A stretch of 64,000 nucleotides of DNA from a virus: IMG/VR virus record IMGVR_UViG_3300017951_000010, positions 27,412 to 91,411 of that record; one strand, written 5' to 3'. Below, in pieces: positions 30,858 to 54,886 of the stretch; position 1 is the stretch's first letter; every line of letters starts with the position of its first letter. The notes under the pieces are model-generated. The model made no database searches, was not told the DNA's origin, and saw nothing but the letters and a program-made list of their open reading frames with translations. Made by a program: the position numbers and the translations under genes.

Positions 30858-31871
30858 ATGAACCTGATCCAATCTACTATTCTGACAAGTCTACCTGCGG
30901 CTAGGAAAAAAACTCCCAGTGGCTGGATATCTTTCAATGCGCCTTGTTGCGTACACAACGGCGAGACGGCAGACAAAAAGAAACGTGGTGGCATAATGAC
31001 CAGTGCAGACGGAACAGTAAGTTATCACTGCTTCAATTGTGGATTCAAGGCCAGTTACGTGATCGGCAGGAAGCTCACGTACAAGATGAGGCAGTTCATG
31101 GGCTACATCGGCATACCCGACGACACAATAAAGAAGTTGGCCATAGAGGCCATGCGTGAAGAAGAGAACGACATCAAGTATGAGAAAAAGAAATTTGTAA
31201 ACTTTAAAAACAAAGCACTGCCAAAAAACACACACAAACTTGATATTTGGCTAGAGAAATATATCGGAAACGACTTGACAGAACCGCAATGGAAAAAAAT
31301 TGATGGACTACTCAAATACCTAGGAGATAGAGGCATTGGCCCTGATTGGTATGATTTCATGTACTCTCCAGACAAGATGTGGGACATACACCAACGTCTG
31401 TTAATACCATTCTATTGGAGGGGTGACATTGTTGGTTACACAGGAAGAATATTTGAAGAATCGCGTGGTGTAAAATATTACACCGACGTATGGCCGGGGT
31501 ACGTGTTCAACATGGACGCACAGGATTGGGCAAGGAAATTTGTTATAGTCACTGAGGGACCTTTTGATGCCATTGCCGTTTCTGGAGTCAGCATACTGGG
31601 GTCGGAGATAAATGACACACAAAGAGAGTTGATTAATAATCTTGGAAGAAGAGTTATTGTTGTACCGGACAGAGATGCACCTGGAGAAAAATTGATTGAT
31701 CAGGCGACAGAGTTTGGATGGAGCGTGGCCTTTCCTGAATGGGATAACAGTATCAATGATGTTGCAGATGCAGTAAAGAATTATGGGAGGCTGTACACGA
31801 TACAATCTATTTTGAAAACAGCAGAAAGTACCAAACTTAAAATTGACCTGAAGAGGAGGATGTATGGTTAG
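30858..31871 (+). CDS. 61: DNA primase (gp61-like)
   Basis: 337 residues, as T4 gp61 (342). The N-terminal zinc site is formed by Cys30/31, His33, Cys58 and Cys61 (the latter in YHCFNCGF). The Toprim core has VTEGPFDAIAV (231-241, Glu233 and Asp237) and VVPDRDAPG (268-276). The primase makes the pentaribonucleotide primers for the lagging strand and works with gp41, encoded two genes on. The fold and catalytic residues look complete. Confidence 0.92.
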   Translation: MNLIQSTILTSLPAARKKTPSGWISFNAPCCVHNGETADKKKRGGIMTSADGTVSYHCFNCGFKASYVIGRKLTYKMRQFMGYIGIPDDTIKKLAIEAMREEENDIKYEKKKFVNFKNKALPKNTHKLDIWLEKYIGNDLTEPQWKKIDGLLKYLGDRGIGPDWYDFMYSPDKMWDIHQRLLIPFYWRGDIVGYTGRIFEESRGVKYYTDVWPGYVFNMDAQDWARKFVIVTEGPFDAIAVSGVSILGSEINDTQRELINNLGRRVIVVPDRDAPGEKLIDQATEFGWSVAFPEWDNSINDVADAVKNYGRLYTIQSILKTAESTKLKIDLKRRMYG

Positions 31872-32772
31872 TTTCCACGTTGAACCTACAAGTAAATGCA
31901 CTCTGGCGTGTAGCCTATGTGATAGGACTTGGTTCTATGAAAAGTTCAAGACTCGATCTATACACGAAATTGATGTAGACAATCTTGTATCTTTTGTGGG
32001 TGCCAATGCTAACATCGAACTGTGTGGCAACAACGGAGATCCTATATATCATTCTAAGTTCTTAGAACTTATTCGTAAATTAAAAGATAACAACTGTAGG
32101 ATAAGCATTATAACAAACGGTTCATCGAGAAGTAAAACTTGGTGGACAAGTTTATCTGTCCTACTGACAGAAAAAGATTCAATTACATTTAGCATAGACG
32201 GTCTAGAGGATACCAATCACATCTATCGTAAAAATTCTAAATGGCACACAATAATAGAGGCTGTAAATGTCATGTCGTCTAGTAAATGTAAATTGATTTG
32301 GAAGTTCATTGTATTCAAACACAATCAACATCAGATAGAACAAGCACAGGGTTTTTCAAAGACTTTGGGTTTTGATCATTTCAGATTAGAGCAGAGCGAT
32401 AGATGGTTAGGACAAAAAGATTTGATGCCTGACGAGGAATATGTTGACAAATACTACAAGCATCAGGAGTCAGTTTTGATTGACAAAGACTACCAAACCC
32501 AAATGAGTCCTGCTTGTTTGGTAAATGACAAACCAAGTTCTGACCTTTATATAGACGCAGAAGGCGACTTTTATCCTTGCTGTTGGATGGGCACCTATAG
32601 ATACAAGTACAAGAACATTTTTTCACCAAAACAATCAAATTTCAATATTAGAAACAACACACTACAAGATATTTTGCAAAGGTCGGATGTGGTTGAATTT
32701 TTTAATTCAACAAAACAATTTACATCTGCACACGATTGTTGTAAAATACAATGCGGAGTAAAAAATGGCTGA
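31864..32772 (+). CDS. Radical SAM enzyme with SPASM-like C-terminus
   Basis: 302 residues. The [4Fe-4S] motif is CTLACSLC (C-x3-C-x2-C, about 12-19). ELCGNNGDPIY (about 51-61) is the GGEP-like SAM motif, and TFSIDGLEDTNH gives the next strand. The C-terminal part has several Cys (DFYPCCWMG about 234-242, and a final HDCCKIQC) typical of a SPASM auxiliary-cluster domain. Such proteins modify peptides or small molecules. It is inserted between primase and helicase genes, overlapping both by 8 bases, so it is expressed with the replisome. Confidence 0.8.
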   Translation: MVSFHVEPTSKCTLACSLCDRTWFYEKFKTRSIHEIDVDNLVSFVGANANIELCGNNGDPIYHSKFLELIRKLKDNNCRISIITNGSSRSKTWWTSLSVLLTEKDSITFSIDGLEDTNHIYRKNSKWHTIIEAVNVMSSSKCKLIWKFIVFKHNQHQIEQAQGFSKTLGFDHFRLEQSDRWLGQKDLMPDEEYVDKYYKHQESVLIDKDYQTQMSPACLVNDKPSSDLYIDAEGDFYPCCWMGTYRYKYKNIFSPKQSNFNIRNNTLQDILQRSDVVEFFNSTKQFTSAHDCCKIQCGVKNG

Positions 32773-34891: not shown

Positions 34892-34926
34892 GTTTGCTCA
34901 AGGCAACAACAGGCAAACATAGGCAA

Positions 34927-36618
34927 ATGAAAGATAAGGAACTAAACGACATAACAAGGCTGTACGATAGATTTATTAGGCAATGCCCAGGCACAGAAGA
35001 ATACACGCAAAGGCTCGCTGAGGAAACTCGCATCATCCTTCAACTACGTTTCGTAGATTACTTCATACAAATATGTGACATCATTGCAATGACACGAGAC
35101 ATACCACACATGACACGTGGTTCGGCTGGTTCGTCATTGGTCTGTTACCTATTGGGCATAACAGATGTGGACCCAGTGGAGTGGGGCATACCCGTAGCAA
35201 GGTTCCTCAATCCCAACAGGGATGACCTACCTGATGTTGATATAGACTTTCCCCATCACAAGCAGGACGAGGTGATGCAAAGAATATTCAAACGTTGGCC
35301 GGGACGCAGTGCTAGAATATCTAACTACGTGCTCTATCAAGATAAGTCGGCAAGGCGTGAAGCGGCGAAACGTTTGGGTGTCAAGGGTAACCTACCCCGC
35401 AGGTTCACATATGATTCGTTAGGCATCGACGCCAAAGAGGCCAGACGTATCGAGAACAAATTGAAAGGTAAGAAAAGATGCATATCAAAACACTGCGGAG
35501 GAATACTGATGTTTCAAAGACAACTACCAAAAAGCCTGTTCACGGCGGAGAACCAAATACTACTAGACAAGAACGAAGTGGAGGACCTGGAACACCTCAA
35601 GGTGGACATTTTAGCCAATCGTGGTTTGTCGCAACTCATAGAGATAGATCCCATACGGAAACTGACAGACTATCCCGAAGAGGATTCCGCTACTTCGGAA
35701 CTTTTGTGCAGGGGAGATGTACTGGGAGTGACACAGGCAGAGAGTCCGGCCATGAGGAGACTGTTCAGGGCGATACAACCGAAGAGTAGGAAGGACTGTG
35801 TGTTCGCCACGGCACTGATAAGGCCCGTTGCCATATCAGGACGCAAGAAGGCCACCATGTTCCATGACTGGAGCAAGGAACGTATGAGTGATACTATTGT
35901 GTATGAGGATGATGCCATAGACAGGATCGCAGAGGTGCTGGACATAGACAAGTATGAGGCCGACATGTACAGACGTGCATTCGCCAAGAAGAACGAAGAA
36001 AAGATAATGGAGTTCATAACGAGACTGGGCGAGCATCCACGCAAGGACGAGATTATAACAATGCTACAGTCATTGTCAGGGTTTGGCCTGTGCAGGGCAC
36101 ACGCCGTTAACCTGGGAAGGTTGATATGGGCGTTGGCTTATCAAAAAGCACACAACAAAGAAAAATTTTGGAGATCTTGTTTAAAACACTGCCAGGGATC
36201 ATACAAGCGTTGGGTTTACAGGACAGAAGCCAAGCGTGTGGGCATAGAAGTAGTAACACCTAGCAAGTCCGACAAATGGGACACACCGGAGTACCAATAC
36301 AGGAAGTACGGTTGGTGGAGCCAGGATAATTTCATGCCAGGCATGTACGTGAAAGAACTTTATCTGGACAAAGTGGAGTTCGCAGGTATGATAGCCAACG
36401 GAAGAGTGTTCCGTAGCGACAAAGGTAGTTACGTGACGTTCCTGACGCTGGGCGTTGGTAATGGACAATACATAGATGTCACTATCAAACGAGCGTTTGC
36501 ATACAGTGATCATGATGTGGTGTGGGGACAGGGTACAATAAGGCACAGCAACAACTCGGACTATGTGGAGTGCTATGATTCAAAAGGTTTCCGTTTGGAA
36601 AAATTCAACAATAAGTAA
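34927..36618 (+). CDS. Compact C-family DNA polymerase (DnaE-like, no PHP domain)
   Basis: 563 residues from the ATG at 34927; the open frame also extends to a TTG at 34894. Palm motifs are RGSAGSSLVCYLLGITDVDP (64-83), RFLNPNR and PDVDIDF (102-108; Asp103 and Asp105), then KHCGGILMF (188-196) and HLKVDILANRGL (third Asp227). LGVTQAESPAMRRL and ALIRPVAISG match the thumb/fingers boundary blocks. HAVNLGRLIWALAYQKAH is the fingers helix. EFAGMIANGRVF to DVTIKRA is an OB-fold-like end. DnaE is about 1,160 residues; the PHP and tau-binding parts are missing here. It follows helicase and repair genes and is a credible phage replicase. Confidence 0.82.
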   Translation: MKDKELNDITRLYDRFIRQCPGTEEYTQRLAEETRIILQLRFVDYFIQICDIIAMTRDIPHMTRGSAGSSLVCYLLGITDVDPVEWGIPVARFLNPNRDDLPDVDIDFPHHKQDEVMQRIFKRWPGRSARISNYVLYQDKSARREAAKRLGVKGNLPRRFTYDSLGIDAKEARRIENKLKGKKRCISKHCGGILMFQRQLPKSLFTAENQILLDKNEVEDLEHLKVDILANRGLSQLIEIDPIRKLTDYPEEDSATSELLCRGDVLGVTQAESPAMRRLFRAIQPKSRKDCVFATALIRPVAISGRKKATMFHDWSKERMSDTIVYEDDAIDRIAEVLDIDKYEADMYRRAFAKKNEEKIMEFITRLGEHPRKDEIITMLQSLSGFGLCRAHAVNLGRLIWALAYQKAHNKEKFWRSCLKHCQGSYKRWVYRTEAKRVGIEVVTPSKSDKWDTPEYQYRKYGWWSQDNFMPGMYVKELYLDKVEFAGMIANGRVFRSDKGSYVTFLTLGVGNGQYIDVTIKRAFAYSDHDVVWGQGTIRHSNNSDYVECYDSKGFRLEKFNNK

Positions 36619-36743
36619 ATCTGTAACGCCATTATTCAATGACGTCGGAAAAACAAGGACCTGCTGAGTTGAGAGAAACACAGGCACTGCAAAAAAGGCC
36701 CTTCCGTATGCGAATTAATCGCTAACAATCACAAAACAAAGTG

Positions 36744-36772
36744 TTGACTTATTGTTATAGAACAAATAATAT
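36744..36772 (+). promoter_or_regulatory. Sigma-70-type promoter of the ABC-transporter cassette
   Basis: TTGACT (36744-36749) and TAATAT (36767-36772) are separated by 17 bases, the optimal distance. AAGGAG 8 bases before the ATG at 36798 gives a strong ribosome binding site. The gap from 36619 to here carries no gene. It is a host-type promoter for a moron-like cassette. Confidence 0.75.
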
Positions 36773-36797
36773 GTGAAAACTTATATAAGGAGAATAA

Positions 36798-38054
36798 ATG
36801 AAAAAAATCATAATTTCAATAATTTCCTTTCTAGCATTAATTTGCATGCCTGTAATGGGTTTGGCAAAGGATGTAAAGATAGGAGTGATATATCCGCTGA
36901 CAGGGTCATCTGCACAGATTGGTAAGGATGCTGTTGCGGCAGTGAATACTGCTTTGGATATTATCAACAACAGCCATGACATACCAGGCATGCCTCTGGC
37001 AAAGAACAAAGGACTAAAAGGTCTTAACGGAGCCAATGTCAGCATAGTTGTGGGTGACCATACAGGAAAACCAGACGTTGGTGTCAGTGAGACTGAAAAG
37101 ATGCTGAACAAAGATGGTGTCCACGCCATGTATGGTGCATACTTTAGTTCAGTGGTAGCCGCGGCTAGCACAGTGACGGAAAGAGCAGGAATACCATTTG
37201 TAAATGGAGATTCTGCATCACCTAAACTAACATCGAGAGGTCTGAAATACTTTTTTAGAGTTGGGCCACACGATGGAATGTTTACTCAGTTGATGTTCGA
37301 ATTCATAAAGGACTTCAACAAGAAAAACAATGCAAACCTGAACACATTGGGTATCATACACGAAGACACACTTTGGGGTTCAGACAGTGGATCAACTCAA
37401 AACAAGATGGCCAAAGAACAAGGTTTGAACGTTGTTGAGAAAATCAGTTACAAGGCGTCTACCACGACGTTGACATCTGAAGTACAGAAACTGAAGGCAT
37501 CAAATCCAGATGTAACTCTTCCGTCTCAGTATACCGCAGATGCATTCTTGTTCATGAACACAGCCAAGGAGTTGGATTACAATCCTAAATTGTTAATCGC
37601 CCAGAACGCTGGATACGTCGACCCAACATTTATTTCAACAATGGGTGACAAGGCAGAGGGCGTGATTTCAAGATCACCTTTCAACACTGATCTAGCAAAG
37701 ACCATACCAATGATAGGAACCATAAATGAGATCTTCAAGAAACACTCAGGCGGTAGAGATCTGTCTGATGTTCCAGCGAGAGCATTTACTGGATTCATGG
37801 CCCTTGCTGTTGCAATAGACAACGCGGGCTCGACAGATCCTGATAAGATCAGACAGGCTCTTGTGGATCTAGACATTCCAGGCGAAGCATTGATAGTACC
37901 ATACAGAGGTGTCAAGTTTGGTCCAGACGGGCAAAACTCGGCAGTGAGAGGTGTGCTGATGCAGGTTCAAAACGGAAAATACTGTACTGTATATCCTTAT
38001 GAACTAGCGGCTTGTGACCTTGTGTATCCTATGCCAACTTGGGATCAAAAATAA
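36798..38054 (+). CDS. ABC importer substrate-binding protein (LivJ/UrtA type)
   Basis: 418 residues. A signal peptide (MKKIIISIISFLALICMPV...GLA-KD) is cut by signal peptidase I at about residue 24; there is no lipobox. The mature part starts VKIGVIYPLTGSSAQIGKD, the hallmark of type I periplasmic binding proteins for branched-chain amino acids, amides and urea. AMYGAYFSSVVAAAS (about 113-127) lines the ligand cleft. It captures a small amide or amino acid in the periplasm and delivers it to the permease encoded downstream. The ligand cannot be chosen from sequence alone. Confidence 0.85.
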   Translation: MKKIIISIISFLALICMPVMGLAKDVKIGVIYPLTGSSAQIGKDAVAAVNTALDIINNSHDIPGMPLAKNKGLKGLNGANVSIVVGDHTGKPDVGVSETEKMLNKDGVHAMYGAYFSSVVAAASTVTERAGIPFVNGDSASPKLTSRGLKYFFRVGPHDGMFTQLMFEFIKDFNKKNNANLNTLGIIHEDTLWGSDSGSTQNKMAKEQGLNVVEKISYKASTTTLTSEVQKLKASNPDVTLPSQYTADAFLFMNTAKELDYNPKLLIAQNAGYVDPTFISTMGDKAEGVISRSPFNTDLAKTIPMIGTINEIFKKHSGGRDLSDVPARAFTGFMALAVAIDNAGSTDPDKIRQALVDLDIPGEALIVPYRGVKFGPDGQNSAVRGVLMQVQNGKYCTVYPYELAACDLVYPMPTWDQK

Positions 38055-38065
38055 CAACACCAAAC

Positions 38066-38095
38066 TTCGAGGCGTAGGCGTCGCGACGCCTCGAA
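38066..38095 (+). terminator. Perfect 10-bp hairpin between binding-protein and permease genes
   Basis: TTCGAGGCGT (38066-38075) and ACGCCTCGAA (38086-38095) pair fully around a 10-base loop. Only a short T-rich stretch follows. Such a hairpin usually stabilises the upstream mRNA or attenuates the downstream genes, giving more binding protein than permease. Confidence 0.6.
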
Positions 38096-38111
38096 TTCAT
38101 ATTTTCATACA

Positions 38112-38978
38112 ATGGGCACTGATATCATTATACAGGCAATCGTAGCAGGACTGATGATGGGACTGATATATGCCTTGATAGCGGCGGGCCTCAGTTTGAT
38201 TTTTGGATTAATGGAGATTGTAAATTTCGCTCACGGCGAACACCTTATGCTGTCCATGTTTACAACATTCTGGTTGTGGTCATTGTTCGGCCTGGATCCT
38301 TTACATTCAATTCCGGTAACTGTTTTGCTGATGGCATTCTGTGGTATAATCACACATTACTTCTTGATACGTTACATATTGAAAGCGAAGATGTTGATAC
38401 AGATATGTGCAACCTTTGGGTTGTCTATATTCATGAGATCATTGGCGCAACTTTTGTGGACACCAGATTACAGACACGTGTCCAATCCGATTCTGGAAGG
38501 CAGGCTCGAAATAGGTAACATATACATCGGACAACCACAACTGTTCGCCAGCATGGTTTGCCTACTGGCTTTCGTAGGACTCTACTGGTTCGTAAACAGA
38601 ACTGACACAGGGCTGGCAATACAGGCAACTTCACAGGACAGGCATGCCGCAGAAATCCTGGGTATACCATCTAATAAAATGTTCGCACTGGGGTGGGCCA
38701 TAGGCCTAGGCTGTGTTGCTGTTGCTGGTTCAATGATGATGAACTACTTTGCTGTTTTCACAGACGTTGGTACCAACTTTGCCCTATTTGCCTTTGTTGC
38801 GGTTGCCCTCGGCGGTTTCGGTAGCATTATCGGCTGTCTATATGCGGGCATCATAATAGGCCTTGTAGAGTCACTGGGCGGCCTGCTGATAGACCCTTCG
38901 TTTAAATTACTGTACATTTTTGCCATATACCTCATAGTTGTGATTTACAGACCGCAGGGTTTGTTCGGGAGATACTGA
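38112..38978 (+). CDS. livH: ABC permease, LivH type
   Basis: 288 residues with about eight transmembrane helices. MGLIYALIAAGLSLIFGLMEIVNFAHGEHLM (about 16-46, quoted in part) contains the family signature NFAHGE. GVAVAGSMMMNYF and ALGGFGSIIGCLYAGIIIGLVES carry the EAA-like coupling region. The protein ends YRPQGLFGRY as in LivH/UrtB. It forms half of the inner-membrane channel with the LivM-type subunit. It overlaps the next gene by one base. Confidence 0.88.
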   Translation: MGTDIIIQAIVAGLMMGLIYALIAAGLSLIFGLMEIVNFAHGEHLMLSMFTTFWLWSLFGLDPLHSIPVTVLLMAFCGIITHYFLIRYILKAKMLIQICATFGLSIFMRSLAQLLWTPDYRHVSNPILEGRLEIGNIYIGQPQLFASMVCLLAFVGLYWFVNRTDTGLAIQATSQDRHAAEILGIPSNKMFALGWAIGLGCVAVAGSMMMNYFAVFTDVGTNFALFAFVAVALGGFGSIIGCLYAGIIIGLVESLGGLLIDPSFKLLYIFAIYLIVVIYRPQGLFGRY

Positions 38979-39985
38979 TGAGCAACGCACTGTCACAAGC
39001 GAAGTCAGAACCAATTTACAACACCAACGGAAAAATTGCATTCTCAATATTGTGTACTGTGATTCTACTTGCGTTCCTGCCTGTAATTGGCATTAACAAT
39101 TTTTACCTACATTTGTTTATCATGTTATTCATGCACAGTGTGATGGCGCAATCATGGAACATCATCGCCGGCTTTTCAGGACAGATAAGTCTGGGACATG
39201 GATTATTTTTTGGTATAGGTGCTTACGCTACATCATTCCTCTACACCGAATACGCAATAACACCCTGGATCGGTATAATATTCGGCATGGCGGTGTCGGG
39301 TGTATTGGCAGTTCTCATAGGTGTTCCTATGTTGCGATTACACGGTCACTACTTTGCCATAGCGACATTATTGATAGCAATCAGTTTCTCATTGTTTTTC
39401 AGACGATGGGATCTTGTCGGAGCGGCATCTGGACTCTGGATCACAATGACAGATACAGATTCATGGATGGCACTTCAGTTCCATTCAAGTAAAGTTCCAT
39501 ACTACTATATTTTCTTATCATTCTTCATTGCTAGTTTCCTCATGACGTGGATATTGAACAGATCCAAACTAGGTTATAGGTTGAAAGCAGTACGAGATGA
39601 TCAACAGGCGGCGGCCAGCATCGGAATAGATGTGTCACGTCATAAGATATTGGCCTACGTGATTTCGGCGATGATGATGTCTCCAATGGGAAGTCTGTTC
39701 GCACAGTACATACTCATAATTGACCCTGCGACAGTGTTCAATATAGAATTTTCAATCGTGGTGCTTTTAATTACAGTGCTGGGAGGCATTGGAAGCGTGT
39801 GGGGGCCTTTGATAGGCACTGCTATCCTGATTCCGATCTCCGAATACACTAGGATATACCTAGGCGGGACCGGAGGAGCAGTTGACCTTATACTCTACGG
39901 ATTGATACTGATGCTGATATGTGTGTTCAGACCAACAGGTTTGATATCATTACTACCTAACAAAGTATTACAAAGGAAAAAATGA
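38978..39985 (+). CDS. livM: ABC permease, LivM type
   Basis: 335 residues with about nine or ten membrane spans. AGFSGQISLGHGLFFGIGAYA (in part, about 62-82) is the LivM hallmark. RLHGHYFAIATLLIA and KAVRDDQQAAASIGIDVSRHK give the cytoplasmic coupling loop. VLGGIGSVWGPLIG is the EAA-like motif, and the end FRPTGL is typical. It pairs with LivH. The start overlaps the livH stop (TGATG). Confidence 0.88.
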   Translation: MSNALSQAKSEPIYNTNGKIAFSILCTVILLAFLPVIGINNFYLHLFIMLFMHSVMAQSWNIIAGFSGQISLGHGLFFGIGAYATSFLYTEYAITPWIGIIFGMAVSGVLAVLIGVPMLRLHGHYFAIATLLIAISFSLFFRRWDLVGAASGLWITMTDTDSWMALQFHSSKVPYYYIFLSFFIASFLMTWILNRSKLGYRLKAVRDDQQAAASIGIDVSRHKILAYVISAMMMSPMGSLFAQYILIIDPATVFNIEFSIVVLLITVLGGIGSVWGPLIGTAILIPISEYTRIYLGGTGGAVDLILYGLILMLICVFRPTGLISLLPNKVLQRKK

Positions 39986-40704
39986 AAATATTGAAGGTAT
40001 CCGATCTAAGTAAATCATTTGGTGGCATCAAAGCCAACAGTGAGATATCATTCGATGTAGAACAAGGAAGCATTCTGGGAGTTATTGGACCCAACGGTGC
40101 CGGTAAATCAACACTGTTCGATTTGATAACTGGATACACAAAAGCAGACTCAGGACGGGTTGAATTCTTTGGCAAGGACATATCCAATATGAGGCCAGAC
40201 AGAGTAAGCAGTCTGGGTATAGGAAGAACTTTCCAAAAACTTAAACCGTTTGCGGATCAAACTCTGCTTGAGAATGTGATGATAGGGTGCTTCGTAAATG
40301 CAACAACCATGAAGAACGCAAGGAACAGGGCACTGGAGATTATTGACTTTGTTGACCTAATAGACAAGAGATATCATTATGCTAGAGAACTTTCAACAGG
40401 TCAAAGAAAAAGACTTGAGATGGCCAGGGCCATGGCCATAGAGCCAAAGTTACTGCTAATGGATGAAGTGACGGGCGGCGTGGATCAGAAAACGATCCCA
40501 GGCCTGGTGGAGTTAATTAAGAAAATGAAGAAGACCGGAGTTACGATTATAACCATTGAGCACAACATCAACATCATAATGGAAATCTCAGACAACATCC
40601 TTGCTTTAGATCAAGGCGAAAGGATTGCGTACGGCACACCGACTCAGATACAGAATAACAAAAAGGTAGTCGACTCCTACCTAGGAACCTATGATGCTAA
40701 TTGA
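39982..40704 (+). CDS. livG: ABC ATPase, LivG type
   Basis: 240 residues. Walker A is GPNGAGKST (about 36-44), the signature is LSTGQRKRLEMARAM, Walker B LLLMDEVTGGVD, and the switch His is in TIEHN. In place of the usual LSGG this subunit has LSTGQ, common in LivG/UrtD. It hydrolyses ATP to power import together with LivF. It overlaps livM by 4 bases and livF by 14, which points to strictly coupled translation. Confidence 0.9.
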   Translation: MKILKVSDLSKSFGGIKANSEISFDVEQGSILGVIGPNGAGKSTLFDLITGYTKADSGRVEFFGKDISNMRPDRVSSLGIGRTFQKLKPFADQTLLENVMIGCFVNATTMKNARNRALEIIDFVDLIDKRYHYARELSTGQRKRLEMARAMAIEPKLLLMDEVTGGVDQKTIPGLVELIKKMKKTGVTIITIEHNINIIMEISDNILALDQGERIAYGTPTQIQNNKKVVDSYLGTYDAN

Positions 40705-41401
40705 TATCAAAAACATTGACGTACTTTATGATGATTACCAAGTGATATGGAACGTTTCGATGAATGTCAAACAAGGTGAGATAGTTGCGTTGCTGGGTCC
40801 GAATGGTTCAGGTAAGAGCACTATACTAAACACAATCAGCAACTTGGTTCCTCATAGGAAGGGAAGCATACACTTTGATGGGCAACTTATTTCAAACGTT
40901 CCAACACATCAAAGGACGTCTTTAGGTATTTCACACGTGCTTGAAAGAAGAAGAGTTTTTCCACACCTTACTGTAATTCAGAACTTGATGCTCGGAGCAT
41001 GGCACTCAAAGGCCAAAGAAAAATCTCAAATTTCTCTTGCTAAAATTTTCAAAATATTTCCAAAACTTCAAGTACGAAAAAATCAATTGGCTAGAACCAT
41101 GTCCGGTGGGGAACAACAGACTCTAGCAATAGCAAGGGGATTAATGGGACTACCTAAATTGCTGATGGTGGATGAGCCATTCCTTGGACTGTCTCCAATC
41201 GTAATGAAAGACTTGATCAAAGTATTCAGGAACATCGCAGATGAAGGAATATCAATTTTATTCGTTGAACAGAATGTTAGATTAGCACTAAACATGGCTG
41301 ACCGAGGATACATTCTGGAAAGCGGAAGATTAGTAATTGACGGTGAATCAAAGGATCTGATTGATAACGAAAAAGTTACGAAAGTATTTTTAGGGAATTA
41401 G
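40691..41401 (+). CDS. livF: ABC ATPase, LivF type
   Basis: 236 residues (or 235 from the second ATG). Walker A is GPNGSGKST (about 36-44), signature MSGGEQQTLAIARGL, Walker B LLMVDEPFLGLSP, switch His replaced by Gln in VEQN as is usual in LivF. It completes a five-subunit importer: one binding protein, two permeases and two ATPases, all apparently intact. The stop lies directly against the stop of the converging hydro-lyase gene. Confidence 0.9.
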   Translation: MMLIDIKNIDVLYDDYQVIWNVSMNVKQGEIVALLGPNGSGKSTILNTISNLVPHRKGSIHFDGQLISNVPTHQRTSLGISHVLERRRVFPHLTVIQNLMLGAWHSKAKEKSQISLAKIFKIFPKLQVRKNQLARTMSGGEQQTLAIARGLMGLPKLLMVDEPFLGLSPIVMKDLIKVFRNIADEGISILFVEQNVRLALNMADRGYILESGRLVIDGESKDLIDNEKVTKVFLGN

Positions 41402-42187
41402 TTACAAAGCCGCAAGATCATTATTCAGCAGATCTGTTATCAACATACTCCCCGGATAATGTGTAATACAAAAATCAGGTTTCGAGTCTTGAAGCACTGA
41501 CTGTGGCGTTACACCACATGCCCAAAATATCGGTATCTCTCCATCCTCAAGCGGCCTCGGTGCATCTCCATAATCCGGTTTCATTATATCATCGATTCCA
41601 ATCTTAGCGGGATCTCCTAAATGAATGGGTGCGCCGTGCACCGCAGGAAATCTCGAACTAATCTGTATTGATCTTATTGCGTCCTTGGCAGTAAGTGGCC
41701 TCATGGAGACAACAACCTTTCCGCTAAACTTACCTGCGGGTTTGCAGTCAATCGATGTCCTGTACATAGGCACTACCGTGTCATTCTCTATGTGTTGCAT
41801 GGGTATGCCGGCTTCTAATAAAGGTAACTCGAAAGACATAGAACATCCAAGAACAAAAACTGTTAAGTCATCGTTCCAATATTTTTTGATATCAAATGGT
41901 TCGTCGATTATCTTTCCTTTTTCCCACACCCTGTATCTTGGCACATCTGTTCTGATGTCGATGTCACCTAGGTCTTGTAGCATTGGATTTCCTTTGGTTC
42001 CAAATCCTATCAACGGGCAAGGCTTTGGGTTCTTCTGACAGAAAGATGCGAAGTCCATTGCGTAGTCACTTGGTAATATGCAAACGTTCCCTTGGACGTA
42101 CTTTCCCGCGGTACCGGCAGTTTGTTTAGTATACTGATTTTTCCTTATTACTTGTCTTGCCTCTGATGGATTTTGAATATCAAGCAT
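41402..42187 (-). CDS. DUF1445 putative hydro-lyase / D-glutamate cyclase-like enzyme
   Basis: 261 residues from the ATG at 42187; the frame is open to a GTG at 42244, but the family normally begins near this ATG. Signature blocks are [62 protein letters not shown] (about 113-129), VVSMRPL and FWACGVTPQ near the end. The family includes mammalian mitochondrial D-glutamate cyclase, which makes 5-oxoproline, and bacterial YcsI near oxoproline genes. Convergent with the importer genes, it may process the imported compound; this is inference. Confidence 0.85.
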
Positions 42188-42260
42188 TTTATTTTTTTGT
42201 AGATACTTATAATAGTTTCCAGACACAGTCAAAAGTTTAATCACCGATGACGGCTATCAG

Positions 42261-42267
42261 TAAATAC
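42261..42267 (+). promoter_or_regulatory. Late-promoter-like TAAATAC
   Basis: AGTAAATACCGG, 4 bases before the ATG at 42272. It lies between the divergent hydro-lyase and methyltransferase genes. Confidence 0.5.
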
Positions 42268-42271
42268 CGGT

Positions 42272-43108
42272 ATGAAACAATTCAACGCAGAATTTCTTGA
42301 AACAGATTGGCGAAGAAACAGACCACAAAAATTTGGATTCAAGATGTCGAACGAAAAGACTTTGGCAAAACATCAACGTCTCCTTCCGCCCGAAATGGTA
42401 AAAGGAAAATCAATACTGGACATAGGATCATTCATGTCACAGACAGGGGATTGGTGTTTGAATCACGGTGCCACAAAATACACTGGTGTCGAAATAATAA
42501 AAGAATTTGCAGACAGGGGCATAGAACTGATGGAGAAGTATCACTCAGGAGAGAATTGGAACATCATACATTCGAGTCTTGAAGATTACTTTGCCACTCA
42601 CAACGAGAAATATGATATCATATTCTCATGGGGAGTATCATTCAGCCAAATAGATCACGCATGGTTCATCAAAAATCTCTGTGAACGCTGTGATCACATG
42701 GCCCTCAATTGGAGGCATCCAAAGGTGATGTGGAACGACAACAACGATTACATTCCAGATGAGATGTGGAAGAAGTTTGAATATGATATCCCTTACCAAG
42801 AATGGCAAGAGGACGTAATGACACAGACAGCAGGTAAGAATGCAAGTGTATACTGTTCCTCTGTACACACAAGCATGAAGGCAGTGCAACTGCTTATGAA
42901 GATGAATGGTTTTTCATCAAGCACAGACAGTTATGAGTACTTCAAGAAGGTCATGCCTGAAGACATGGGCATGTTCAGACGAAAAGACAGACCCGGCTTC
43001 TTTGTGGTCGAAGGCACTAGAGACGAGGCAGTGGCACGTCCAAACATATTCAACGAGATGGTTGAAAACCCAAAGGTGTGGAATGAAAAGTGGATCGACT
43101 GGTGTTAA
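42272..43108 (+). CDS. Class I SAM methyltransferase
   Basis: 278 residues. The SAM loop is ILDIGSFMSQTGDW (about 48-61) followed by YTGVEIIKEFADRG with the acidic ribose-binding residue. DIIFSWGVSFSQIDH (about 115-129) is motif II/III. The N-terminal 45 residues are basic and aromatic. The C-terminal third has RHPKVMWNDNNDY and a RPGFFVVEGTR strand. The substrate is unknown; small molecule or sugar is most likely. It overlaps the next methyltransferase gene by 26 bases. Confidence 0.75.
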   Translation: MKQFNAEFLETDWRRNRPQKFGFKMSNEKTLAKHQRLLPPEMVKGKSILDIGSFMSQTGDWCLNHGATKYTGVEIIKEFADRGIELMEKYHSGENWNIIHSSLEDYFATHNEKYDIIFSWGVSFSQIDHAWFIKNLCERCDHMALNWRHPKVMWNDNNDYIPDEMWKKFEYDIPYQEWQEDVMTQTAGKNASVYCSSVHTSMKAVQLLMKMNGFSSSTDSYEYFKKVMPEDMGMFRRKDRPGFFVVEGTRDEAVARPNIFNEMVENPKVWNEKWIDWC

Positions 43109-43769
43109 GGACTGGCAGTTTGATGAGACGATAGCAAAGTCCTTCGTTGAACATGCCAGGAAGCACATACCAAACTACGAGCAAGTCATAGACAAGTGTG
43201 CCAACTATTGTGAACTCAACCTGCCCAAAGATGCAAAGATCATTGATGTTGGCTGTGCCACAGGGCACACATTAAGCAGACTGCACGGTCGCGGGTTTAC
43301 TGATCTATATGGCGTTGACAACAGTGAAAGCATGGTAGAACAGGCACAACAAGGTATAGCAACTTACACAGTGAGTGACAAGTTTCCAGAAGGACAGTTT
43401 GACATGATACTGTGTAACTGGACCTTACATTTTATGAAAGACAAGATATCTTATCTGACCTCTATGCGTGACGGACTATCTGAAAACGGGACAATGATTA
43501 TATCCGAAAAGATCAGTAAAGATCCAGATCGTGTTAAATTGTATCATGACCAAAAAAAGAGGCTGGGGGTATCTGAAGAAGAAATAAAACGAAAACAAAA
43601 ACAATTAGAGAACGTCATGTTCATAGACTCGCTAGATTGGTACCAACGCATCTTAAAAACATTGGGTTTTGAAGTGACAGTCATAGATGCTGATTGGTGT
43701 TTCGCGACGTTCTTGTGTAGAAAAGAAAAAGACTCATGGATGCAATGGACATACCACACTGGGTGGTAG
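43083..43769 (+). CDS. Class I SAM methyltransferase
   Basis: 228 residues from the ATG at 43083. The SAM loop IIDVGCATGHTLSRL (about 46-60) and YGVDNSESMVEQA (about 69-81) are canonical. FDMILCNWTLHFM (about 98-110) and MRDGLSENGTMIISEKI fit a small-molecule methyltransferase. The open frame continues upstream without a good start, and this ATG gives the expected N-terminus. It lies between a second methyltransferase and the PP-loop gene with overlaps on both sides. Confidence 0.8.
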   Translation: MKSGSTGVKDWQFDETIAKSFVEHARKHIPNYEQVIDKCANYCELNLPKDAKIIDVGCATGHTLSRLHGRGFTDLYGVDNSESMVEQAQQGIATYTVSDKFPEGQFDMILCNWTLHFMKDKISYLTSMRDGLSENGTMIISEKISKDPDRVKLYHDQKKRLGVSEEEIKRKQKQLENVMFIDSLDWYQRILKTLGFEVTVIDADWCFATFLCRKEKDSWMQWTYHTGW

Positions 43770-44824
43770 GAGACAAACACATCTATAATCAACTAGAGGC
43801 ATGGGAAGAAATTGCGGCCTCGGGCAAAGCATACAGGTTTTACTTCTACGATCATGTGTACAACCGTTACGACTGGTCCGTAGAACCAAAACAGTCGTGG
43901 GATGAGTTAGTGTTACACAGATGCCTGCAACTGCGGCAGAAATACAGAAAACTATCTTTGTGGTACAGCGGTGGACGAGATTCTCACCACGTGTTGAGAT
44001 CGTTTGCCAAAAATAATATACCAATAGACGAGTTACTACTTTTACATTGGAAGATGAATCCAGTACGTAATCACGAATATTATAACTGGCAGTTGCCTCT
44101 GGCAAAAAAATACAAAGAGGTCAACCCTAATGTTAAGATAACGACAGTGGATGTTGACTCAAAAGTTTACAACAAATACTATGATTCGAAAGGACCAGAT
44201 TCTAGATATTTCTCTTCCGACGATGGGCTCTATCAACCAAGTGATTTCGAGTGGCACACAGTAAATCTCTGCAATATTTCTGACAGCAGTACCGGGGTAA
44301 TTGTGGCCCTTGAAAAGCCATACCTTTATCTAGATAACGGAAAACTGTATCACAGATTTGTTGACAAACCGTTTGAGCTGTACAGAGGCTCCATTAGTGA
44401 ATTTGAAATGTTCCACTATGCCCCTGACCTGCCAGAGTTATATATCAAGCAGTGCCACATATTGGCCAACTACATAAAACAGAAATACCCAAATAAGGAC
44501 AAGCAATTCTTTGATGAGTTCATAGAGAACCCCCATGGTTCTTATTACAGTGAATACTGTACGGCGTGTGGACGAGGTCCGGCCATCGATGAGGACGAAC
44601 CGTGCAACAACGGAAAAAACAAGTACAATGGGTCACATAAAATATTTGACAACATCATAGACATTGCCCAAAAAGACAATTTTAAATCCTACAAGATATG
44701 GAAGGATGGTATGGAATATTGGCACAAAAAAGTGCCGGAGGCATTTCAACAGAAGCAGAATTACAGACAGGGTGGAACCACAGGAATAGTAAGCACATCT
44801 AAGTTCATTATGGACTATGCCTAA
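43736..44824 (+). CDS. PP-loop ATP pyrophosphatase-like protein
   Basis: 362 residues. LSLWYSGGRDSHHVLRSF (about 73-90) has the PP-loop SGGxDS, used by enzymes that adenylate a carboxyl, amide or tRNA base (asparagine synthetase, PAPS reductase and QueC types). No glutaminase or PAPS C-terminal motif is seen. Two Cys-rich spots (YCTACGRGPA and DEPCNNGK, about 273-297) might bind metal. It is overlapped by a methyltransferase gene upstream, so the product may be modified in sequence. The substrate cannot be inferred. Confidence 0.7.
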   Translation: MDAMDIPHWVVGDKHIYNQLEAWEEIAASGKAYRFYFYDHVYNRYDWSVEPKQSWDELVLHRCLQLRQKYRKLSLWYSGGRDSHHVLRSFAKNNIPIDELLLLHWKMNPVRNHEYYNWQLPLAKKYKEVNPNVKITTVDVDSKVYNKYYDSKGPDSRYFSSDDGLYQPSDFEWHTVNLCNISDSSTGVIVALEKPYLYLDNGKLYHRFVDKPFELYRGSISEFEMFHYAPDLPELYIKQCHILANYIKQKYPNKDKQFFDEFIENPHGSYYSEYCTACGRGPAIDEDEPCNNGKNKYNGSHKIFDNIIDIAQKDNFKSYKIWKDGMEYWHKKVPEAFQQKQNYRQGGTTGIVSTSKFIMDYA

Positions 44825-44828
44825 ATAC
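44822..44828 (+). promoter_or_regulatory. Late-promoter-like TAAATAC
   Basis: CTAAATACAAAC overlaps the PP-loop gene's stop and lies 16 bases before the ATG at 44845. Confidence 0.35.
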
Positions 44829-44844
44829 AAACAAAAGAAAAATC

Positions 44845-45540
44845 ATGCCAAAATATATAAAGACAGTCAAGACAAAAGAACAACTGGCAGTACTGCTTCA
44901 AGGCATTGCCGGCAAGGGTAGAGAACTTATACAGCAATGGATCGATATCGATCCTATCTTTGTTGGAGAGTTGACATCAGCAAATTACGAAATGAGTATC
45001 AAAAAGCATCTCATAGAATCTGTGAAACAGATTTCGATAGAAGGCCACTGGTGTGAGTTTGGAGTCAGAGAAGGAAGAAGTCTCCAATGGTTGATAAATG
45101 AGCATCCTAATACTGTAATACATGCTTTTGACTCATGGAAAGGATTACCAGAGGATTGGAACCACGGAACAGGCACAGTGGCCGACATGTCTTGTGAACC
45201 TCCTGTTGTGCCAGAACACATACAACTACACAAAGGATGGTTCAAAGACACATTACCTATCTGGAAACAAAAAAATGACGGACCAATCGCATTCCTCCAC
45301 ATGGACGCCGATATATACTCATCTACCAAAGAAGTCTTGGTATCATTGGATGAACAAATTGTTCCTGGAACTGTTATAACTTTTGATGAATTTTGCAATT
45401 TTAGACTTTCCGGAAAGATGAGCAAATGGCAGGACCAAGAATTCAGAGCGTTAACAGAATGGCTAGATGAAAAGCAAAGGGAGGTTGAACCTTTAAATCG
45501 AAACTGGGCGTATCAGGCGAGTTGTGTAGTCGTTAGTTGA
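44845..45540 (+). CDS. TylF/MycF-type O-methyltransferase
   Basis: 231 residues. HWCEFGVREGRSLQWL (about 68-83) is the TylF-type SAM loop. VIHAFDSWKGLPEDW (about 91-105) supplies the ribose-binding Asp. AFLHMDADIYSSTKEVL (about 151-167) is the Mg-binding block. TFDEF near 181-185 gives another metal ligand. The family O-methylates sugars of macrolides and glycans. It converges on the FkbM gene with a 48-base overlap. Confidence 0.85.
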   Translation: MPKYIKTVKTKEQLAVLLQGIAGKGRELIQQWIDIDPIFVGELTSANYEMSIKKHLIESVKQISIEGHWCEFGVREGRSLQWLINEHPNTVIHAFDSWKGLPEDWNHGTGTVADMSCEPPVVPEHIQLHKGWFKDTLPIWKQKNDGPIAFLHMDADIYSSTKEVLVSLDEQIVPGTVITFDEFCNFRLSGKMSKWQDQEFRALTEWLDEKQREVEPLNRNWAYQASCVVVS

Positions 45541-49942: not shown

Positions 49943-50825
49943 GTTCCCAGCACTCCCCAGATTCAAATTCTGCAACGCTCCATTGGCAGTGGGCAATATT
50001 GTTTGTCCATTGCTTCTTATCACCCCTGTATGGATTGTTGATTTCATCAAGGCTATTACTACTTACATCATAGACCATACTTCCTGTGTCTAGCGCAACA
50101 CTTGGAACTCCGTTGATTACGGCATCTATACCTGTACCGGAGGTGTAAGTTACTGTGCACCATGCGTCCTTGAATAGTTCTTGCACAGGTACAAAATTCT
50201 TTTGGGTAAGATCACAGTCCTGCCATATGACATTAGGCAGGCTCAATATTTCTTGTTTCAGTTTGTTGTGTAGTGTTGTCTTCCTGTACAGCGGATGTGG
50301 TCTCACAATTATAGTTCTATCTGTTTTAGCCCTCAATTCTTTTGCTACATTGTTGGTCCATTGGAAAATATCTAAACCCCGTAGGCTGGCATCTCCTACC
50401 TTTTGCATACACAACAAAACGTAGTCTCCGTCTGCCTTCCACACACACTCCGGATCATATCCGTTTCTCTCAAACACTTTTTTTGACCTATCAGCCGTTA
50501 TGTGTTCAAATCCCCACTTCGCGTCATCCCAAAGGAATCCATTAACTCCTACCCTGAACTCCGAATGGAACGCTGTTGATATGGGCCTGCCAATCAGTTG
50601 TGTTTCCAACTGAACATATGGCATTCCACTTTCTATCACACGACCTTTGCCTTGATGTGCTTTCCTACCTCTGCTTTTCTTATAACTGCCATATATCACG
50701 GCACAGTCATACTTGTGAGCGTTGTCACTGGTGGTAATCTCGCCACCACACCCTTTGGCAAAGGATACCAACACGTTCCTGAATTGGTCATAGTTGGCAG
50801 AATCTTCTATTACAGCAATTCGCAT
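49920..50825 (-). CDS. Capsule-type glycosyltransferase-like protein, paralogue family member 5
   Basis: 301 residues from the ATG at 50825, which follows a TAAATAC motif by 4 bases. It has TIIVRPHPLYRKTTL (about 168-182), AWCTVTYTSGTGIDAVINGVPSVAL (about 222-246) and the terminal QWTNNIAHCQWSVAEFESGECW. These are the three family blocks shared with the genes at 12216, 15524, 16329 and 21145. The RPHP motif is complete. It is far from the other four, showing dispersal of the family through the genome. Confidence 0.6.
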   Translation of the reverse strand: MRIAVIEDSANYDQFRNVLVSFAKGCGGEITTSDNAHKYDCAVIYGSYKKSRGRKAHQGKGRVIESGMPYVQLETQLIGRPISTAFHSEFRVGVNGFLWDDAKWGFEHITADRSKKVFERNGYDPECVWKADGDYVLLCMQKVGDASLRGLDIFQWTNNVAKELRAKTDRTIIVRPHPLYRKTTLHNKLKQEILSLPNVIWQDCDLTQKNFVPVQELFKDAWCTVTYTSGTGIDAVINGVPSVALDTGSMVYDVSSNSLDEINNPYRGDKKQWTNNIAHCQWSVAEFESGECWEHVRKSIR

Positions 50826-50829
50826 GCGG

Positions 50830-50836
50830 GTATTTA
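50830..50836 (-). promoter_or_regulatory. Late-promoter-like TAAATAC (minus strand)
   Basis: GTAAATACCCGC on the minus strand, 4 bases before the ATG at 50825. Confidence 0.5.
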
Positions 50837-50891
50837 CGTAGCGGAGCGAAAGCGTAAATTTTACCAAACGTTTTTTCAAAAAATACGCGGA

Positions 50892-50907
50892 AGCGTAAAA
50901 GCGTAAA
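50892..50907 (+). repeat. Tandem AGCGTAAA repeat in a divergent intergenic region
   Basis: AGCGTAAA occurs twice in direct tandem (50892-50899, 50900-50907) and once more at 50851-50858. The 131-base gap (50826-50956) between divergent genes also holds a TTTTTT-C-AAAAAA inverted repeat. It may be an operator or promoter region. Confidence 0.4.
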
Positions 50908-50956
50908 GCCGGTCTGACCCGAACGATAATTAACACTTAACAATGGGAGACACAGC

Positions 50957-51127
50957 ATGGGCATACACTACGACTACAAGAGCACCCGAGGTTCCAAGAA
51001 GATGCAGAAGCAACAGGAACGTGAACAGCGCAGGCGATCCAGACGCTCCCGGGGGGAGATCCCCAAACAGAAACAGGACGAGAACAGGCCACTGACACTG
51101 GACATGATCACGGACCCCAACAAATGA
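50957..51127 (+). CDS. Small very basic protein
   Basis: 56 residues, ATG at 50957 behind GGGAGA, stop overlapping the ATG of the radical SAM gene (ATGA). It contains HYDYKSTRGSKKMQKQQ followed by an Arg-rich run (REQRRRSRRSRGE) and an acidic end. No fold or family is recognised. It is the first gene of the GC-rich segment. Possible roles are nucleic-acid binding or a substrate or leader for the radical SAM enzyme next door; the latter is speculation. Confidence 0.5.
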   Translation: MGIHYDYKSTRGSKKMQKQQEREQRRRSRRSRGEIPKQKQDENRPLTLDMITDPNK

Positions 51128-52155
51128 TCAATGAGAGATTATTCAATCACTACCGCATAGACACCCGCAAGGACCTACGGATAGGCAACAGTTGCCCCAG
51201 GCCCTTCGACACGGTGCTGATAGACAAGCAGGGATCCTGCTACGCCTGTGAGTGCCAGTCGTGGTTGCCACAGAGCATAGGCAACCTGCAGGTTAGGCCC
51301 CTGGCGGACATACTGGGCAGTGACATGCACAGGCACCTGCAGGGGTCCATAACGGACGGCACCTACAGGTACTGCAACGAGCACCAGTGCTCCTACATAC
51401 GGTCACAGAACGTGTTGCATGGCCAGCCGGATCGCATACGTCACCTGAGGCTGGCCATAGATGACAGTTGCAACCTGCGTTGTCCGAGTTGTAGGAAGGG
51501 CTTGATATTCCACAAGGAGGGCTCCGCGTACGACCTGGGCATACGCCTGGCCGACAGGATCAACGACTGGTTGCATGACTGTGAGGACCCGATGCAGGTG
51601 CACATAGGTTCCGATGGTGACCCGTTCGCGTCGCACGTGTACAGGCACTTCATGGAGCAGACACCACAACGGGACAACATCCGGTACAGCATACTGACCA
51701 ACGGACTGATGTTTCCGGAGTTCCACTCGCGGGTGCCCAACGTGATCGGCAACCTGCAGGAACTGGGAGTCAGCGTGGACGGCGCAACACAGGAGACCTA
51801 CGAGAAGTTGAGGCTCGGGGGCAAGTGGGAAAAGATACTGGAGGGGTTGGAATGCATGGCGGAGCAGAGACAGAAGCACGGCTTCAGGTTCATACTGCAC
51901 TTCGTGGTGCAGAAGGACAACTACCACGAGATGGAGGCCATGATAGACCTGGCGGAGCGGTTCGGGGCCGACCGAGTCTGGCTCAACAAGATCGAGGACT
52001 GGGGCACGACCGATGACTTCCACACACAGGACATCTGGCGGAGCCCGGAGTACCTGCGCAGGCTGGATGGCGTGCGGCAACGCATATGGCGGAGGGGTGA
52101 CCGGTTCATAGAGTGCCCCACGCTGTTGACCGAGAGCGAGAGGGCCCGACCGTGA
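51124..52155 (+). CDS. Radical SAM enzyme with N-terminal twitch-like domain
   Basis: 343 residues. The first 100 carry a Cys-rich auxiliary-cluster segment (NSCPRPFDTVLIDKQGS, then CYACECQSW and CNEHQCS), placed before the core. The core motif CNLRCPSC (about 115-122) is C-x3-C-x2-C. GSDGDPF (about 161-167) is the GGEP-like motif and SVDGATQETYEKLR (about 219-232) the next strand. This domain order is that of N-terminal twitch radical SAM proteins. DNA composition here is strongly GC-rich, unlike most of the window. Confidence 0.82.
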   Translation: MINERLFNHYRIDTRKDLRIGNSCPRPFDTVLIDKQGSCYACECQSWLPQSIGNLQVRPLADILGSDMHRHLQGSITDGTYRYCNEHQCSYIRSQNVLHGQPDRIRHLRLAIDDSCNLRCPSCRKGLIFHKEGSAYDLGIRLADRINDWLHDCEDPMQVHIGSDGDPFASHVYRHFMEQTPQRDNIRYSILTNGLMFPEFHSRVPNVIGNLQELGVSVDGATQETYEKLRLGGKWEKILEGLECMAEQRQKHGFRFILHFVVQKDNYHEMEAMIDLAERFGADRVWLNKIEDWGTTDDFHTQDIWRSPEYLRRLDGVRQRIWRRGDRFIECPTLLTESERARP

Positions 52156-52706
52156 AGTCCTACCACGTGTTGGGGTGCGGCCCACTGGCCGAGATACAGT
52201 CACACACAATGGACTACATCCACAACAGGAGACCGGAGATGCTGGACGAGAGCGACCTCTGGCACAAGGCCGACACGCCGGAGTTCCTGGGTGCGTGTGC
52301 GCCGTTGGTGCGCTGGACACGTGAACTGGGACTGCGGATCAGGGAAGTGGCCTTCACTGTGTCACACAGCGGCACGGTGGTCAACCCGCACATAGACGAG
52401 GCGCCGGTGCTGGCCAAAGTCAACGTGCCCATACTCAACACCCGACACACCTACAACAGGTGGTACGACGTGCCACAACAGGTCATGCAGGACCCCAGGC
52501 ACAGGCGCACCAACAGTTTTGGGAGATCATACCACAGTTTCCAGGGAGTGGCACTGCGGCAGGTGGATGAACTGGAACTGACGTCACCCGCCGTGTTCAA
52601 CTCCGCCCGGGCACACGACATCGCGTTCACCGAGAGGTCCACTTACCCACGAGTGGTGCTGACCTGCATGTTCCACGATGAACCTAAAAAGTTCCTGGAG
52701 GCATGA
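52152..52706 (+). CDS. Probable 2OG-Fe(II) oxygenase-fold protein
   Basis: 184 residues from a GTG at 52152 that overlaps the previous stop (GTGA). TVVNPHIDEAPVLAKVNVPI (about 75-94) contains an H-x-D pair followed by a jelly-roll strand. FNSARAHDIAFTE (about 150-162) offers a distal His and YPRVVLTCMF the Arg. The arrangement fits an aspartyl-hydroxylase-like or related dioxygenase. It is in the GC-rich segment, coupled to the radical SAM gene, so both may act on the same substrate. Confidence 0.5.
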   Translation: MKSYHVLGCGPLAEIQSHTMDYIHNRRPEMLDESDLWHKADTPEFLGACAPLVRWTRELGLRIREVAFTVSHSGTVVNPHIDEAPVLAKVNVPILNTRHTYNRWYDVPQQVMQDPRHRRTNSFGRSYHSFQGVALRQVDELELTSPAVFNSARAHDIAFTERSTYPRVVLTCMFHDEPKKFLEA

Positions 52707-52713
52707 CCGCTCG

Positions 52714-52720
52714 TAAATAT
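52714..52720 (+). promoter_or_regulatory. Late-promoter-like TAAATAT
   Basis: CGTAAATATTTCC, AT-rich within a GC-rich segment, 6 bases before the ATG at 52727. Confidence 0.5.
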
Positions 52721-52726
52721 TTCCAA

Positions 52727-53236
52727 ATGAAGATAGCCATCACAGGACACAAGAGAGGCATAGGACGTCAGTTGGACCTACAGCTCACGGCACTGGGACA
52801 CCGGGTGGTGGGCATATCGAGGAGCGATGGGGAGAACATCCGCAGGGTGGCGCACACCGCTACACTGATAGAGGACTGTGACATGTTCATCAACAACGCC
52901 GTGAGTGCCTACGCCCAGACCGAGTTGCTGTTCGAGGTGTGGCACAGGTGGGCAGAGCTCAAGGAGGCGCACCACATCTGGAACATATCCACGAGGCTGT
53001 GCCTGGAGACACAGGACAGGCAGATCAATGGTCTTACCATGCGGGAGAGCATGGAGTACAGGAATCGCAAGATGAGCCTGGAACTGGCACACAGTCAACT
53101 GGCCGCGCAGGCCAGCAACATAAAGATGAAATTAATCAGGCCACCGGGCGTGAGGACCCAGGCGTTCAGTGATCCCAATGGCCTGTCCGCGGAGGAATAC
53201 GTGCATGGACTCCTGGAGGAGCAGGGACTCAAATGA
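52727..53236 (+). CDS. Short-chain dehydrogenase/reductase-like protein
   Basis: 169 residues from the ATG at 52727; an ATG at 52703 overlapping the upstream stop is the alternative. IAITGHKRGIGRQL (3-16) is the TGxxxGIG cofactor loop. CDMFINNAV (about 53-61) is the NNAG-like block. EYRNRK has the Y-x3-K active site. The protein is short for an SDR (usual 250). Its role may be oxidation or reduction of a sugar or peptide product of neighbouring enzymes; this is inference. Confidence 0.65.
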   Translation: MKIAITGHKRGIGRQLDLQLTALGHRVVGISRSDGENIRRVAHTATLIEDCDMFINNAVSAYAQTELLFEVWHRWAELKEAHHIWNISTRLCLETQDRQINGLTMRESMEYRNRKMSLELAHSQLAAQASNIKMKLIRPPGVRTQAFSDPNGLSAEEYVHGLLEEQGLK

Positions 53237-54375: not shown

Positions 54376-54886
54376 AATAACAAAAATCAGAGACGAATAC
54401 GTCTTCCCAATATTTAAGAATGGCTATACTAGCATCAGAAACCATGCAGACCAGAACAGATGCAGATGGTTTATCAACGAGCAGTGCAGACGGGCAGACA
54501 CCATCACTGTGATAATCAGAGAACCAAGGCAACGTTACATATCTGGGGTGCATACGGTTGTAGAACTTCTGCGCCGTAAACACAAAAACATCGACCACGA
54601 GACAGTTGTGACCCTCATTGAAAATTACAATTTCTCCAACGAACATTTCCAACCACAATGGGCCTGGATGCTTAGGCTGAAAGAATATTTCAGTGGCAAC
54701 ATCAAATTGGAGGGAATGGTACATCTAGACCACTTGACTGGACTACACGACGGTCCCTTCATCCCAGAGATGACCAACGCCCAGAGAAAAATACTAGAGG
54801 CAATGACGCCACCGGATCTATCCAATGACTACAAACTCTACAGACAGATAGGCACAACAGGGAGTATAGCAGATGTATTGTCCTAG
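54368..54886 (+). CDS. Sulfotransferase-like protein
   Basis: 172 residues. YVFPIFKNGYTSIRNH (11-26) resembles the PAPS loop (PKNACTS type). ITVIIREPRQRYISGVH (about 46-62) is the R-x-P...RFxSG block that binds the 3'-phosphate. HFQPQW follows at about 96-101. It looks like a compact member of the carbohydrate sulfotransferase superfamily. It lies between two radical SAM genes, overlapping both, and so belongs to the same operon. Confidence 0.65.
   Translation: MIKITKIRDEYVFPIFKNGYTSIRNHADQNRCRWFINEQCRRADTITVIIREPRQRYISGVHTVVELLRRKHKNIDHETVVTLIENYNFSNEHFQPQWAWMLRLKEYFSGNIKLEGMVHLDHLTGLHDGPFIPEMTNAQRKILEAMTPPDLSNDYKLYRQIGTTGSIADVLS

Follow-up and report, generated by a model that had tools for sequence, protein, structure and literature searches.

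The window, a 64,000-nucleotide stretch of DNA covering bases 27412-91411 of a linear IMG/VR virus record of 91,411 bases, contains five contiguous transporter genes on the plus strand (36798-41401), all open and full length. The first encodes a periplasmic substrate-binding protein of 418 aa (36798-38054; Peripla_BP_6, E = 5e-50), whose N terminus reads as a hydrophobic, signal-like stretch. It is followed by genes for two permeases, one LivH/UrtB-like (permease 1, 38112-38978; BPD_transp_2, E = 3e-33) and the other LivM/UrtC-like (permease 2, 38978-39985; BPD_transp_2, E = 1e-38), and for two ATPases, one LivG-like (ATPase 1, 39982-40704; ABC_tran, E = 1e-29, plus BCA_ABC_TP_C) and the other LivF-like (ATPase 2, 40691 or 40694 to 41401; ABC_tran, E = 7e-31). 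Both ATPases carry Walker A (GPNGAGKS/GPNGSGKS), signature (LSTGQ/MSGGE), and Walker B (LLLMDE/LLMVDE) motifs, and the adjacent, intact binding protein, permease pair, and ATPase pair make up a five-gene ABC importer of the HAAT (Liv/Urt) type.

Convergent with ATPase 2 lies a minus-strand gene (41402-42187) for a DUF1445 putative hydro-lyase (PF07286, E = 5e-62), the two stop codons abutting at 41401/41402. The protein belongs to the NCBIfam "putative hydro-lyase" family NF003969, with a score of 398.6 bits against a cut-off of 324, and keeps the family-conserved residues in the alignment. Its ORF opens at a GTG at 42244, and alignment with SAR11 proteins sets the conserved start at the ATG at 42187. 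Two statements of a preliminary description of this DNA are borne out: that a phage carries five intact importer genes, upheld by the open reading frames, the Pfam matches, the ATPase motifs, and a second phage carrier; and that the DUF1445 gene is directly convergent with them, its end at 42187 included.

Upstream of the binding-protein gene is a tentative sigma-70-like promoter match (TTGACT-17-TAATAT; 36744-36772, plus strand), obtained by a consensus scan in which the number of sites does not exceed that in shuffled sequences. A hairpin separates the binding-protein gene from the permease genes (38066-38095, plus strand; -17.9 kcal/mol, z = -4.2), and in the second phage a hairpin occupies the corresponding gap (-9.0 kcal/mol, z = -2.2). 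By analogy with such operons, this intergenic hairpin may serve to make the binding protein more abundant than the membrane components.

Phage functions encoded on the contig include a large terminase (TerL), a single-strand binding protein (SSB), DnaB helicase, primase, and a DnaE-like polymerase of short length. TerL and SSB each show 55% identity to jumbo phage proteins, TerL to those of the PA5oct type (284-288 kb) and SSB to those of Phosso (469 kb) and PA5oct; for the polymerase the figure is 39%, to a protein of an uncultured phage of 484 kb. From these matches, the contig probably represents part of a jumbo phage genome. At only 574 aa (34894-36618), the polymerase falls well below the length of a complete DNA polymerase III alpha chain. 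The window fragment also contains at least five radical SAM genes, at 31864-32772 and 51124-56952, together with a GC island (50001-55000; up to 0.59, against approximately 0.43 for the contig) that spans radical SAM genes, and the second phage has radical SAM relatives as well, at 22-30% identity.

Insertion sites and a second phage carrier

The cassette is bordered on the left by the phage DnaE-like polymerase gene (34894-36618, plus strand), which has 311 relatives among matching IMG/VR stretches, the best 80 of them at 72-95% identity, and the right flank is a phage methyltransferase gene (44845-45540, plus strand). One relative (L102) has a near-seamless empty site, in which 8 bp separate the polymerase gene from the counterpart of this methyltransferase gene. 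The intervening DNA of the window (36619-44844), which holds the cassette plus three more genes (two methyltransferase-like), is therefore an insertion relative to L102. The best 80 of the 311 polymerase-gene relatives have replication genes in common with the window phage, but all lack the cassette; in 24 of these 80 the sequence continues for 5 kb or more past the polymerase gene. The region 3' of the polymerase gene (36619-44844 and the matching spot in L065-L144) looks like a variable cargo spot, its gene content differing among relatives.

The preliminary description proposed searching viral contigs for the same cassette, and pattern searches of 2.9 million of them returned one other viral relative of the binding protein, on the 65.5 kb contig IMGVR_UViG_3300021197_002039. 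This unrelated, T4-like phage carries all five transporter genes in the same order, at a different site and at 77-92% identity (binding protein 91%, permease 1 86%, permease 2 77%). Beyond the transporter genes, the two phages share nothing above 31% identity, and the other genes of the second phage are closest to the pelagiphages HTVC008M and Mosig and to cyanophages, all T4-like. Its relatives L147-L149 keep the gene order on both sides and lack the cassette. Further viral scans using the binding protein, permease 1, and DUF1445 as queries found no other importer, leaving two phage carriers.

The importer and the DUF1445 gene had been presented as one cassette, which holds for the window phage, where both occur; DUF1445 is not constant, however, being absent from the second phage contig, most simply through loss. 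DUF1445 genes of approximately 54% identity occur at three other viral loci (L060:7923-8696, L061:10001-10771, and L062:8255-8737), with no transporter or pxp genes in the DNA examined there.

Relationship to SAR11 loci

Cellular homologs were retrieved after the sequence of PDB 8wch joined the query set, a genome scan with the two phage proteins alone having given no match. The phage binding protein is 79% identical both to 8wch and to SAR11 proteins; its homologs are found at 77-80% identity in Pelagibacteraceae (SAR11) and at 72-77% mostly in Gammaproteobacteria bins. In the five-protein tree the two phages are joined (100/100) and nested among SAR11 (100/99, 100/99, and 95/94), and the same nesting is recovered when the binding protein and the remaining four proteins are analyzed in separate trees. 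At these nested nodes the phage genes fall within the SAR11 5-oxoprolinase-linked transporter clade, and the binding-protein phylogeny suggested in the preliminary description for finding host and ligand class thus places the phage clade among SAR11 homologs. An AU test rejects a SAR11 clade without the phages; since the group tested contained the divergent L043 and L045, the nesting rests on the supported nodes and not on this test. From these trees the donor appears to be SAR11. DUF1445 conflicts mildly with this placement, possibly because of long branches: in its tree the window copy is adjacent to SAR11 but outside it (support 80).

Among the overlapping sets of genomes searched (197 from the SAR11 family, 397 from the order, and 385 from the class), the closest sampled cell is at most 79% identical. 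An ortholog of the binding protein at E <= 1e-120 is present in 20 of the 397 SAR11-order genomes, a lower bound owing to incomplete genomes, and the locus is therefore accessory in SAR11.

The SAR11 locus (e.g., L012) shares with the window phage the five transporter genes (77-80% for the binding protein), DUF1445 (76-85%), and the convergent ATPase-DUF1445 junction, and differs in having a divergent binding-protein gene and adjacent pxpA/pxpB/pxpC-like genes, whereas the phages have the binding-protein gene in line and no pxp genes. This difference in gene order (REARRANGEMENT) is consistent: each of the 41 close cellular loci has its binding-protein gene transcribed divergently from the permease block, and both phages have it codirectional. 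A codirectional order occurs in distant plasmid homologs (41-46% identity) but not in the close clade. DUF1445 converges on the last ATPase gene in 34 of the 41 close cellular loci, where the two stop codons mostly abut, and in the window phage this junction preserves the SAR11 layout exactly, to the base. Given this conserved junction, DUF1445 was most likely captured together with the transporter.

Comparison of the two phage copies shows saturated synonymous sites (ps 0.72-0.89) and few protein differences (pn 0.05-0.14), a combination indicating that selection maintains the function of the genes. GC content is 0.43 and 0.41 in the two cassettes, 0.43 and 0.42 in the respective phages, and 0.29-0.32 in the SAR11 loci. 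On this evidence, the cassette genes have probably been long resident in phages and kept functional. We reject recent passive uptake of host DNA, given the GC content, the synonymous saturation, and the identity of at most 79% to any sampled cell. With phage genes on its flanks, absence from relatives, and conservation by selection, the insert has the genomic features of a phage auxiliary metabolic gene cassette.

The phage GC content of 42-43% does not match that of SAR11. The second phage encodes a permuted tmRNA of the alphaproteobacterial type, with a tag unlike those of SAR11; by these sequence features an alphaproteobacterial host is likely for it, and a SAR11 host is possible. Permuted tmRNA genes with a long tag (ANKKALGFADLTVGMSELRLAA) lie directly beside the cassette or the empty site at L002:14611-14951, L147:13424-13763, and L148:12716-13038.

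Candidate ligand and proposed role in infection

In the SAR11 locus, the transporter and DUF1445 genes lie beside genes for PxpA and a PxpC-like protein (TIGR00724), both scoring above their cut-offs, for a PxpB-like protein that falls slightly short of its cut-off, and for a TPR-like protein. The distant plasmid homologs (from Azospirillum, Terrarubrum, Agrobacterium, Roseomonas, and Methylobacterium) adjoin DUF1445, oxoprolinase-type genes, or both. These recurring neighbors make 5-oxoproline or a close relative our best guess for the ligand. Of the three substrates first suggested (amino acid, amide, or oxoproline), oxoproline is thus the one favored by the pxpA/pxpB/pxpC-like and DUF1445 neighbors, while the curated Liv and Urt equivalog cut-offs are not reached. 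The pxp genes present in the SAR11 loci are absent from both phage contigs, which are possibly incomplete genomes, so that the host would have to convert 5-oxoproline to glutamate. Glutamate demand during infection is plausible by analogy with other pelagiphages, which raise the host nitrogen and glutamate genes glnA, gltBD, and amt during infection (PMC12753301).

We consider it fairly probable that the locus is a phage-borne, SAR11-derived uptake cassette that imports 5-oxoproline or a close relative to feed glutamate synthesis in infection. In such a scheme, an ancestral phage would have acquired, from a SAR11-type 5-oxoproline locus, the portion holding the transporter and DUF1445 genes, as the phylogeny and the conserved junction suggest, and the binding-protein gene would have come to lie in line with the permease genes, giving a single phage-style operon, although the direction and cause of this change are our inference. 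At least two unrelated phage lineages have acquired the operon, and purifying selection maintains it there. Infected cells would then synthesize its proteins, export the binding protein, and take up 5-oxoproline or a close relative, and host 5-oxoprolinase could turn imported 5-oxoproline into glutamate for phage synthesis; DUF1445 might conceivably act on the D-form or a related compound. The DUF1445 domain is also found in mammalian D-glutamate cyclase, but that protein additionally contains DUF4392 and its activity was shown for the whole protein (PMC5339696), leaving DUF1445 alone unproven as a cyclase. Only PF07286 was found in the phage protein, in place of the DUF1445 + DUF4392 architecture of the DGLUCY type, and we do not accept D-glutamate cyclase as its proven activity.

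The most serious alternative, though in our judgment an unlikely one, is that the ligand of the same phage cassette is an ordinary amino acid, whether branched-chain or not, or a broad mixture, the 5-oxoprolinase neighbors being incidental. The fold family is indeed Liv/HAAT, and PDB 8wch, at 79% identity, is named a probable Leu/Ile/Val-binding protein. Against this, oxoprolinase-type and DUF1445 neighbors recur across distant bacteria, and scores against the Liv models are far below their cut-offs (e.g., 71 vs. 477 bits for the binding protein, and 96 vs. 379, 94 vs. 366, 186 vs. 362, and 206 vs. 441 bits), placing the proteins outside the curated LivJ/LivK-HMGF families. The importer resembles E. 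coli LivJ/LivKHMGF in subunit make-up and fold families, but the binding proteins are only approximately 24% identical. In LivJ/LivK, a Glu grips the amino group of the ligand; this Glu is not conserved in the phage binding protein, where Gln/Asn aligns at the position, in keeping with a ligand that has no free amine.

That the cassette mainly depletes or senses 5-oxoproline or D-glutamate, as a signal, an osmotic compound, or a wall-derived one, instead of feeding the phage, seems improbable. One report describes altered cyclic-di-GMP and aggregation in Salmonella exposed to 5-oxoproline (PMC9509341), but the cassette comes without a regulator, and a full importer is a costly means of removing a signal. 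We regard a urea or short-amide (Urt) transporter as very improbable: the permease and ATPase do score against Urt models, and the subunit make-up is that of UrtABCDE, yet every Urt score is under its cut-off (UrtB 158 vs. 250 bits, UrtA 23 vs. 493 bits), no urease genes lie beside the cellular homologs examined, and the carboxyltransferase genes neighboring the SAR11 transporter accompany PxpA, which points to 5-oxoprolinase and not to urea amidolyase. On the curated cut-offs, we reject a simple Liv or Urt identity. An assembly chimera or recently packaged host DNA with no phage role is hardly credible even for a contig of metagenome origin, because these genes recur in identical order, at a different site, on an independent contig from an unrelated phage, empty sites exist in relatives of both phages, ordered phage genes lie on both flanks, the GC content is phage-like, identity to any sampled cell is at most 79%, and the gene order is unlike that of all close cellular loci.

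The remark that single transporter parts are the usual cargo of phages is fair, but complete pstSCAB clusters are already on record in contigs of soil phages, and a public phage genome has a similar one (PMC10987575). Complete phage importers are thus known, and the cassette described here belongs with phage auxiliary metabolic genes and is not a new category. Like pstSCAB, it is a complete ABC importer; pstSCAB is a four-gene phosphate system of another family, whereas here a predicted organic-solute importer of five genes, with a linked enzyme gene, is common to unrelated phages. In a survey of transporters encoded by viruses, the ABC type is listed for mimiviruses and entomopoxviruses and not for phages (PMC6163359), and the literature we searched, with subscription papers and preprints outside its scope, yielded no five-gene amino-acid-type importer in phages. 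For 5-oxoproline uptake itself, the secondary transporter PxpT and the TRAP-type DctP6/DctP7 (PMC13274462) share the proposed substrate and the oxoprolinase link, but they are of unrelated transporter types and are experimentally supported.

Phage metabolic genes are mostly single, each boosting one host step; here, all five parts of an importer have probably been kept working over long evolution in two unrelated phages, in an order unseen in close bacterial homologs. The presence of the same importer in an unrelated phage suggests that viruses can bring a whole uptake system into the infected cell. We raise as possible rather than probable that this complete importer for an organic nutrient, remodeled into a phage operon and common to unrelated marine phage lineages, opens 5-oxoproline to infected cells; with the orthologous binding protein found in only 20 of 397 SAR11-order genomes, the phage may then widen the diet of its host and not just boost an existing pathway. 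If made during infection, the importer would let infected cells take up an organic source of nitrogen and carbon by a route of their own, and would bear on viral steering of marine dissolved organic matter. Furthermore, the cassette supplies a direct ligand guess for the transporter of some SAR11 genomes.
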